DNA of 64,000 nucleotides from Bacteroidota bacterium (GTDB lineage Bacteria; Bacteroidota; Bacteroidia; B-17B0; Aurantibacillaceae). Below the pieces are notes generated by a model. That model was not told the DNA's origin. It worked only from the letters and a program-made list of their open reading frames with translations, and searched no databases. Shown piece by piece: positions 23,537-63,737 of this stretch. The stretch lies in the NCBI GenBank assembly GCA_021156365.1, contig JAJNDK010000001.1, forward strand, positions 248,001-312,000, given 5' to 3'. A program made the translations under genes and the position numbers. Every line of letters begins with the position of its first letter. Position 1 is the stretch's first letter.

Positions 23537-23554
23537 TTCCGATAGCTATCGGAA
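23537..23554. repeat. Palindromic repeat, CCGATAGCTATCGG family, copy 1
   Basis: TTCCGATAGCTATCGGAA, an 18-bp perfect palindrome just beyond the DUF3276 stop. The same core occurs at 24808, 26751 and 63720. Confidence 0.8.
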
Positions 23555-24328: not shown

Positions 24329-24556
24329 AAGGCTAAATTATTTAATAAATAAAAAAACGTAAAATTCAATAAAAGGTTACAAAATACACTCTCATTCAAT
24401 TTGCTGCAAAAAGAAGAAAAAAATACTGTTTGTTCAACTGTTTTCGAAAATTTAAGTGGTTTGATAATCAGCTTATTAACAAATAGTCTGTTCTAAAATC
24501 GCCAAAAAGGCCATTTCCCTGATTAGATGGAAATTCTTTTTATCAGGATCCGTATC

Positions 24557-24564
24557 TATATTTG
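24557..24564 (+). promoter_or_regulatory. -7 promoter box for the 75-aa gene
   Basis: TATATTTG, 22 bases before the ATG at 24587. It lies inside the longer reading frame that begins at 24527, so the shorter start is preferred. Confidence 0.5.
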
Positions 24565-24586
24565 TGTTTCTGCTTATTTTTCAGCG

Positions 24587-24814
24587 ATGAAACTATTTGA
24601 AAACGCGTTTACCGGGATGTCGGACAAGAATGGAAATCAGATCTGTGAAGGTCATGACGTGAAATTCTATTATAAAGGTGAATATGTAACCTGCACGGTT
24701 GTCTATTCCAAAGAAGCTGCTATGTTCTGCCTGAAATGGCCGGATGGGTATATTAATAAACACCCCATGAACCCGGATAAATATGAGGTCGTTAATCTAC
24801 GGGACGACCGGTAG
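24587..24814 (+). CDS. Small YopX-like beta-domain protein
   Basis: Protein of 75 residues: MKLFENAFTGMSDKNGNQIC, then EGHDVKFYYKGEYVTCTVVY and a short YINKHPMNPDKYEVV end. The 'f tG..DkNG..I.EGd.V' pattern resembles the small beta-barrel of YopX-like proteins, common on phages and mobile elements but also loose in Bacteroidota chromosomes. There is no signal peptide. An upstream ATG (24527) would add 20 hydrophobic residues but overlaps the promoter box. The stop codon lies inside a copy of the GATAGCTATC palindrome (24808-24821), so the repeat defines the last codon. Family call tentative. Confidence 0.6.
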   Translation: MKLFENAFTGMSDKNGNQICEGHDVKFYYKGEYVTCTVVYSKEAAMFCLKWPDGYINKHPMNPDKYEVVNLRDDR

Positions 24815-24821
24815 CTATCGG
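24808..24821. repeat. Palindromic repeat, CCGATAGCTATCGG family, copy 2 (degenerate)
   Basis: CCGGTAGCTATCGG, one base off the perfect palindrome. It overlaps the last codon and the stop of the 75-aa gene. Confidence 0.65.
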
Positions 24822-25233
24822 GAGAAGTGTAGTCCACATTGCACGTAAGGAGTAATTATCTGAATGTGGTACGTAAACTGTGAGTCATAAAACGAAAAAA
24901 ACCGCAATGGGGTTCCCAGATATAGATTGACGCTTTTTGACCGTAAAATCATTACCTGATGCTTAAAATCTAATCTCCCTTTATTAAAAAAGAGTTAATG
25001 GCATATTTATTGTACAATCTTTACCCTGCTCAACTTATTTACAATGAAAACTCCCGACCACCATACGATGAGAATGGTTCGGCAGGTGTGAAGATTTGAC
25101 AAAAAGAAAAAGGAGCATTGCTTTATTTTATCCATCACGAAAACCGGCTGCAAAAGAATAGTATGAAAAGGGAAATTGGTCTGGCAGGCAGAATTTTTTG
25201 GAAAATGAAAAAACATTCAATTTACAGGAAGAA
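24815..25233. other. AT-rich intergenic region, no gene supported
   Basis: About 420 bases without a convincing gene. It contains the tail of the palindromic repeat, scattered short inverted matches, and a more GC-balanced patch (about 25045-25090) that reads like old coding or repeat sequence but has no frame worth calling. No transposase, tRNA or structured RNA is seen. The last part leads into AGGAAG before the ATG at 25234. Confidence 0.5.
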
Positions 25234-26531: not shown

Positions 26532-27608
26532 ATGTCGAAGAAAAAAGCAAAGTCGTCGGTAAAAAAAGATGACAAGAAACACAAAAAGGCTGCTAAAACC
26601 AAATCGAACAGCAAAGCTGAAAAAAAATCCAGTGCTAAAGCATCAAAAAATAAAATAAAAACCGAAGCAACTAAAAAAAAGATAGCTCCCGCTAAAAACA
26701 AAAAAGCGATCGTTAAACCGGTTAAGAAAAGCAAACCGGCCCCTAAGAAAGTCCCGATAGCTATCGGGACAAAAAAAGCCGTTGCTAAAAAAATTGTTGT
26801 AAAAGCTAAAAGCAAAAAAGCCAGTAAACCGGCTCCTAAAAAAGTCGTAGCTAAAAAAGCAGTAAAAAAACCGGCACCAAAAAAAGTAGCCGCAAAAAAA
26901 CAGGTTCTAAAGAAAATAGCTAAAAAGACTTCACGCCCTGGCGTGACGAAAAAAGCGGCCCCTGCTAAAGCAAAGAAAATAGCTCCTACAAAAACAGTAG
27001 TTAAAAAAGTAAGTAAACCGGCCCCAAAACCTGTTCCTGTAAAGACAGCTAAAGTTGTGGCACCTAAAGCACCGGTGACAAAAGCTAAACCGGAAGTGTC
27101 AAAACCTGCAAAAGTTCAGGCACCGGCTAAAAAACCGGAAGCCCCGAAAACAATTACAACAACAACCGTTCTTCCTCAAAAGCCTTTAATTATAGACAAA
27201 GCGCCGGAAAAACCAATAAAAGAACCGGCCGGCAAATTTGAGCTGGAATATGTGATCCACACATCTACTGCCATCCTTTTTGAATTCCTTACGTCTCCGA
27301 GCGGATTGTCCGAATGGTTTTGTGATGATGTCAACATCCGCAATGAAATATATACTTTTCTTTGGGATGGTACGCAGCAACAGGCCCGTCTTATCAAATT
27401 ATATGAGGAGAAACTAGTGCGTTTTCAATGGGTAGACCGTTTGGATGACGCTTTTTTTGAATTCAGGATCGACCGCGATGATCTGACCAATGATATTTCA
27501 TTGATCGTTACCGATTTTGCCGATAATGAAAGTGAAAGGCAATCTTCCAAATTACTTTGGGATAGCCAGATCGATAAACTGCTTCATGTGTTGGGAAGCC
27601 ATTTCTAA
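26532..27608 (+). CDS. Histone H1-like Lys-rich domain fused to START-like domain
   Basis: A 358-residue fusion. Residues 1 to about 234 are a low-complexity Lys/Ala/Pro tail of (K/A)PKKV(A)AKK and KPAPKK units, like bacterial H1 mimics (HctB, AlgP), expected to be disordered and to bind DNA. Residues about 235-358 (FELEYVIHTSTAILFEFLTS...DSQIDKLLHVLGSHF) match the START-like/AHSA1-type domain that in other Bacteroidota is usually a stand-alone protein of about 130 residues. A 20-bp perfect palindrome of a dispersed repeat (26751-26770) is read in frame as VPIAIGT, interrupting the Lys-rich repeat. The ATG at 26532 is the only sensible start. Convergent with gapdh, 8 bases apart. Confidence 0.85.
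   Translation: MSKKKAKSSVKKDDKKHKKAAKTKSNSKAEKKSSAKASKNKIKTEATKKKIAPAKNKKAIVKPVKKSKPAPKKVPIAIGTKKAVAKKIVVKAKSKKASKPAPKKVVAKKAVKKPAPKKVAAKKQVLKKIAKKTSRPGVTKKAAPAKAKKIAPTKTVVKKVSKPAPKPVPVKTAKVVAPKAPVTKAKPEVSKPAKVQAPAKKPEAPKTITTTTVLPQKPLIIDKAPEKPIKEPAGKFELEYVIHTSTAILFEFLTSPSGLSEWFCDDVNIRNEIYTFLWDGTQQQARLIKLYEEKLVRFQWVDRLDDAFFEFRIDRDDLTNDISLIVTDFADNESERQSSKLLWDSQIDKLLHVLGSHF
26751..26770. repeat. Palindromic repeat, CCGATAGCTATCGG family, copy 3, inside a CDS
   Basis: GTCCCGATAGCTATCGGGAC, perfect over 20 bp. It is translated as V74-P-I-A-I-G-T80 inside the Lys-rich tail, where neighbouring units are KKAPKK-like. Confidence 0.85.
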
Positions 27609-48294: not shown

Positions 48295-48310
48295 TACATT
48301 TTTTTATGAA

Positions 48311-48330
48311 ATTAGTCCAATTGGACTAAT
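48311..48330. promoter_or_regulatory. Candidate TetR operator, 20-bp perfect palindrome
   Basis: ATTAGTCCAATTGGACTAAT, a perfect inverted repeat between divergent promoters. Its position over the -33 regions of both genes is what is expected of a TetR-family operator that represses both the regulator and the hydrolase. Confidence 0.75.
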
Positions 48331-48335
48331 TTTTA

Positions 48336-63719: not shown

Positions 63720-63737
63720 TCCCGATAGCTATCGGGA
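63720..63737. repeat. Palindromic repeat, CCGATAGCTATCGG family, copy 4
   Basis: TCCCGATAGCTATCGGGA, an 18-bp perfect palindrome in the 44-base gap between uvrA and the SIMPL gene. Confidence 0.8.

Follow-up and report, generated by a model that had tools for sequence, protein, structure and literature searches.

The window analyzed here, a stretch of 64,000 nucleotides from a Bacteroidota bacterium, raises the question of how a perfect palindrome came to be translated, in frame, within a lysine-, alanine- and proline-rich tail. The tail belongs to a 358-aa open reading frame on the plus strand (26532-27608), for which an earlier note, made from the letters alone, had described a 20-bp palindrome read as VPIAIGT with no frameshift. 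Both the sequence and the translation confirm this description: GTCCCGATAGCTATCGGGAC at 26751-26770 is palindromic without a single mismatch across 20 bp and is read in the frame of the ATG at 26532. The RNA of this stretch forms a computed hairpin (60 nt, -20.3 kcal/mol, z -4.2). The KPAPKK motifs on either side had been taken for pieces of an uninterrupted tail; the left one adjoins the insert directly, and the right one begins 18 residues after VPIAIGT.

The host gene itself had been labeled H1-like, and this turns out to be a misnomer. A Pfam profile search of the 358-aa frame returned a single match, to the START_2 domain (PF19569; 141.2 bits against a curated cut-off of 23.6, E 2e-41), at 27234-27596 on the plus strand (residues 235-355). 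The Lys/Ala/Pro stretch (about residues 1-235) is thus the N-terminal extension of a START_2 protein, and the frame is not a histone H1 gene. We take the extension to resemble histone H1-like tails, but the likeness is one of composition alone, and the present tail differs from them in being fused to a START_2 domain. Nearly all of the 80 relatives listed for the START_2 protein come from Bacteroidetes/Bacteroidota or families of that phylum, and one comes from Parachlamydiaceae. The extension is presumably unstructured.

To what kind of sequence does the palindrome belong? Its 16-bp core, CCCGATAGCTATCGGG, is found 83 times without mismatch across the 5.31 Mb of the genome, and the reversed control not once. 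Flanks were compared in 51 of the 83, a non-random sample made up of the first 50 listed and one met incidentally. In these, one further base is conserved on each side of the core (T in 45/51 and A in 45/51) and the outer flanks are unrelated; beyond 18 bp the commonest base at any position is shared by at most 23 of the 51 copies, with no target consensus. Because the outermost G/C pair of the 20-bp palindrome is not conserved in the copies read, we define the repeat unit as the perfect 18-bp palindrome TCCCGATAGCTATCGGGA, here at 26752-26769 and read (V)PIAIG(T). With up to three mismatches TCCCGATAGCTATCGGGA is found at 143 genome sites (reversed control, 1), and CCCGATAGCTATCGGG at five sites in the window, where 0.09 were expected and none of 100 shuffles reached five. 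The other sites in the window include a second exact 18-bp copy at 63720-63737 (the longest overlapping frame has 34 codons), a symmetric variant TTCCGATAGCTATCGGAA at 23537-23554, in which a paired change in both arms leaves the palindrome perfect, and a degenerate copy ACCGGTAGCTATCGGG at 24807-24822 that supplies the frame 24527-24814 with its TAG stop codon. A 24-bp perfect palindrome of different sequence, AAATTAGTCCAATTGGACTAATTT, lies at 48309-48332. Exact copies of the core are present in 18 of 60 genomes, the present one included: the congener G002 has 67, G001, an incomplete congener, has 1, and G017, from the same family, has 83. Searches of the open-licence literature with the sequence GATAGCTATC and by topic, over titles and the starts of abstracts, did not turn up this repeat in any report.

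The unit is its own reverse complement, so its orientation is irrelevant, and of its three phases two are open (PDSYR and PIAIG) and the third contains a TAG. Among the 51 copies, 17 lie inside open reading frames of at least 94 codons (nine in frames taken for genes and eight more in other frames of that length), while 34 lie in no such frame. A Pfam search that took in nine of the 17 copy-bearing frames gave matches for seven: START_2, MORN_2 (L007), Thg1 (L046), OmpA (L143), Lysine_decarbox (L144), ORF6N (L145) and FtsZ (L166, matching Tubulin and FtsZ_C). The same type of search as for L007 gave no match for the frames L008 and L040. The unit is read as PDSYR in five of the nine frames searched and as PIAIG in four. 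In L040 the copy at 1501 is read VPIAIG within a hydrophobic part of the protein (MKKTIILSAIFIAA-VPIAIG-SLASC), which from its sequence is an apparent lipoprotein signal peptide.

In several of these genes, comparison with homologues points to the addition of codons, and the copies look like in-frame insertions. In the FtsZ linker the present genome has NTLDPDSYREENASEPVV and the congener G002 has NTLEPTMETPVM; the two are of equal length once 18 bp are removed, and in the DNA the unit splits a would-be GAA codon. The gap of exactly six codons holds for G002 alone, the gap being eight against G001 and three against G031. The FtsZ linker of G002 carries a copy of its own, TCCCGATAGCTATCGGAA (one mismatch), in the PDSYR frame and at a position different from that of the copy at L166 1501. 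The lysine-decarboxylase-like protein reads YEALPIAIGIGKWI where G020 has YTAPEVAKWI, and a four-codon gap is seen in seven of nine aligned homologues (net gain +12 bp). Thg1 shows a net gain of four codons (+12 bp) relative to G020, with a match in 4 of 41 genomes, the present one included, the two other aligned proteins being distant. For ORF6N, KIYDPDSYRDRGQKV stands against KIYELRGQKV of G020, a net gain of five codons (+15 bp). The alignment of KIYDPDSYRDRGQK with KIYELRGQK of G020 places two residues there in the short form, which was found at 11 of 13 homologue loci (of the other two, one yielded a wrong frame and one has a different N-terminus). The reading frame is kept in every case, as selection would demand. 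Since the net gain is smaller than six codons in three of the four genes, one or two target codons would have been lost in these at or after insertion, or the ancestor was different.

At the START_2 locus the evidence is of two kinds. First, the segment is missing from relatives: PIAIG, PDSYR, SRPGV, CCCGATAG and CTATCGGG were absent when 29 orthologue tails from other genomes were read (lengths of 153-258 residues, and 55 for a truncated one), and PIAIG, PDSYR, SRPGV and CCCGATAG were not found in frame upstream of START_2 at 80 contig loci. In 51 of these loci the upstream part has 80 residues or more and a Lys content of 20% or more, and their genomes are partly those of the 29 tails. The observation that would have spoken for an ancestral segment, orthologues with the same hydrophobic residues at this place, was thus not made in any of the tails examined, and as far as this sampling reaches the PIAIG segment is not ancestral. 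Second, when the 18 bp are removed in silico, a G and a CA are joined into a GCA (Ala) codon and the tail reads AAG AAA GCA AAA AAA GCC GTT GCT, or KKAKKAVA, which is typical of the extension; this is suggestive, though it falls short of proof. The earlier prediction that close relatives lack exactly these codons is borne out for the segment itself in the tails read but not shown to the codon: the tails are of low complexity, and indels are numerous between them even among congeners, so that an exact empty site is not demonstrable here. Three MAFFT modes, applied to the present protein and those of G002 and G001, placed either VRVVIKS (G002) or a gap (G001) opposite VPIAIGT. The G002 and G001 tails also contain odd pieces that are not perfect palindromes (STRLPAGKGG and SRASAT, respectively), and in G002 an exact palindrome copy lies outside the orthologous gene (L010), some 0.3 kb upstream of the frame.

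Flanking duplications, which the earlier note had proposed to look for, are absent: a direct repeat of at least 4 bp flanks none of the 51 copies, the one at 26752-26769 included. There is a weak excess of shorter ones (2 bp in 6/51 against 2.5 expected; 3 bp in 4/51 against 1.4). The suggestion that a dispersed repeat is tolerated in this tail thus stands as regards its dispersal, its reading frame and its absence from orthologue tails, whereas the insertion at 26752-26769 and its exact point are something we infer.

Our preferred reading, to which we assign a probability of roughly 0.8, is that very small mobile palindromes insert in frame and that the copy in the START_2 tail is one of them, tolerated in disordered segments. 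On this model TCCCGATAGCTATCGGGA would be a non-autonomous, very small mobile repeat of the present bacterium and some related genomes, one copy of which would have entered the Lys/Ala/Pro extension, most simply at the GCA codon of ...KK-A-KKAVAKK..., turning that alanine into V-PIAIG-T. An 18-bp unit adds exactly six codons and, inserted without a long target duplication, would have left the frame intact. Such insertions would persist where a few added residues are harmless, as in tails, linkers, signal peptides and protein ends, and the VPIAIGT residues are most likely without function in the START_2 protein. Copying of the unit might depend on a hairpin formed in single-stranded DNA, which is a guess on our part. 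The symmetric variant TTCCGATAGCTATCGGAA would fit copying through a hairpin, in which the arms stay complementary, although a single example proves little. A bolder version, tentative and in our view rather doubtful, is that the bare 18-bp palindrome repeatedly writes PDSYR or PIAIG into disordered regions (the FtsZ linkers of two species independently, and Lys/Ala tails), with hairpin copying keeping the arms complementary so that the structure moves rather than an exact sequence.

One alternative is that the palindrome is a functional site selected at many places, and at the DNA level in this gene. Sites of the matS and parS types are examples of protein-binding or nucleoid-organizing sequences, and a site of that kind would accord with the perfect dyad symmetry of 83 copies, with the variant at 23537-23554 that still pairs despite its altered sequence, and with the 34 sampled copies outside any frame of at least 94 codons. 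It sits poorly with the different places of the FtsZ-linker copies in two congeners and with the lack of the unit in most related genomes, only 18 of 60, ours counted, having any. It is also at odds with the surroundings of some copies. Six of the 51 sit at the apex of a hairpin that has a stem of at least 6 and a loop of at most 4 nt, where the null mean is 0.66 and the maximum of 1000 shuffles is 3, and five of these six hairpins are terminator-like, sharing an inner stem of CTGAC/GTCAG (L147, two sites in L155, L160 and L161). Since this stem is common to all five, they may represent one composite repeat rather than independent events. We regard a selected binding site as an unlikely explanation overall.

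Complementary flanks without a loop show no excess among the 51 copies (mean 3.16 of 12 pairs, null 3.16), and at least nine such pairs were found at one site (null 0.28). Three further copies (L043 1501, 2208 and 2606; G000:C1, about 287.9-290.9 kb) lie in an array of eight tRNA genes in 3 kb, beside or inside tRNA-like sequence. We read the first of them as lying at the would-be anticodon loop between acceptor-like arms GGACAAA/TTTGTCC. ARAGORN accepted no tRNA at any of the three, either with the unit or after removal of 16-22 bp, so that insertion into tRNA genes is unproven.

The same extension contains a second dispersed palindrome at 26930-26947, read (T)SRPGVT, whose core TCACGCCCTGGCGTGA (TCACGCC-CT-GGCGTGA, 26931-26946) the earlier note had overlooked. 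TCACGCCNNGGCGTGA has nine copies in the genome (reversed control, 0) and was found in 5 of 60 genomes, including the present one. Four of the nine lie in Lys/Ala tails of three proteins, the other five being in short or doubtful frames; besides the START_2 protein, a 239-aa protein (L169) has two SRPGVT copies in its N-terminal tail, at 1944 and 2094, and a 422-aa protein (L168), which by our reading of its sequence would be adenylate-kinase-like, has one in its C-terminal tail, at 2864. The distant orthologue L106 has GTCACGCCAAGGCGTGAC elsewhere in its tail, read SRQGVT, as well as SRPSVT. Lys/Ala tails thus seem to collect small palindromes. These data bear on another alternative, that of an adaptive rather than a neutral insert: the tails would have co-opted the added segments for some use, PIAIG among them but chiefly the basic SRPGVT. 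The repeated SRPGVT of L169, its presence in L168 and the similar SRPSVT and SRQGVT of L106 speak for such a role; on the other hand, PIAIG occurs in no other tail that was read, and the SRPGVT copies may have spread by recombination between similar tails. Co-option strikes us as quite improbable. Finally, the notion that local mutation in a repetitive, unstable tail made the palindrome, its resemblance to the family being fortuitous, can be set aside given the exact match to the 18-bp consensus, the empty reversed control in 5.3 Mb and a shuffle expectation for the window of 0.09 even with three mismatches.

Returning to the preferred reading of a very small mobile palindrome, the nearest precedents for in-frame insertion are the Rickettsia palindromic elements (RPE), which are described as dispersed palindromic repeats found in frame in open reading frames of unrelated proteins (PMC2229807, PMC10969869, PMC3733652), with lengths of 105-146 bp or about 150 bp (PMC2229807, PMC10969869). 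The present unit is alike in being in frame in seven Pfam-matched, unrelated proteins and in the length gained by four other genes. It is set apart by description: RPE are some 105-150 bp long and belong to Rickettsia, whereas our unit is 18 bp long and belongs to Bacteroidota. Repetitive extragenic palindromes (REPs) are closer in size, being described as short palindromes (20-40 bp), mostly extragenic with some within open reading frames (PMC3733652, PMC3116915), and REPs of the CGTC type are reported from Bacteroidetes too (PMC3733652). The present unit differs from REPs and REPINs in having no conserved GTAG or CGTC tetranucleotide beside it in the 51 copies, and in being a perfect dyad without a loop. 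REPIN-like pairs are lacking among the 50 listed exact copies, since none lie closer than about 400 bp. The genome has three Y1-transposase-like genes (PF01797 matches), but no linkage of the unit to a RAYT was found: their 3.2-kb loci contain no copy with up to four mismatches. Miniature inverted-repeat elements (MITEs) differ in turn, as the present unit lacks a target-site duplication of at least 4 bp in the 51 copies.

A third precedent is the small dispersed repeats (SDR) that Elhai et al. reportedly described in 2008 from Nostoc and other cyanobacteria. These are likewise very small mobile repeats, in a host phylum and with a sequence unlike those of the present unit. One of them, SDR5, is described as inserting precisely within a short palindrome (PMC4390886); for our unit a clean 18-bp difference is seen only in FtsZ against one congener. 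TCCCGATAGCTATCGGGA therefore behaves like RPE, REP and SDR elements, yet it departs from RPE in length, from REPs in tag and RAYT proximity, and from MITEs in target duplication. At 18 bp it is near the lower limit for a mobile element, and one may ask by what means a sequence too short for separate ends is copied. In nature its copies have also furnished presumably disordered regions with new peptide, the FtsZ linkers of two congeners being one instance. We rate TCCCGATAGCTATCGGGA as a member of a broad kind, that of very small mobile palindromic repeats open to translation. In-frame palindromic selfish DNA, known from Rickettsia elements of more than 100 bp, would thereby be extended to an 18-bp unit in Bacteroidota.
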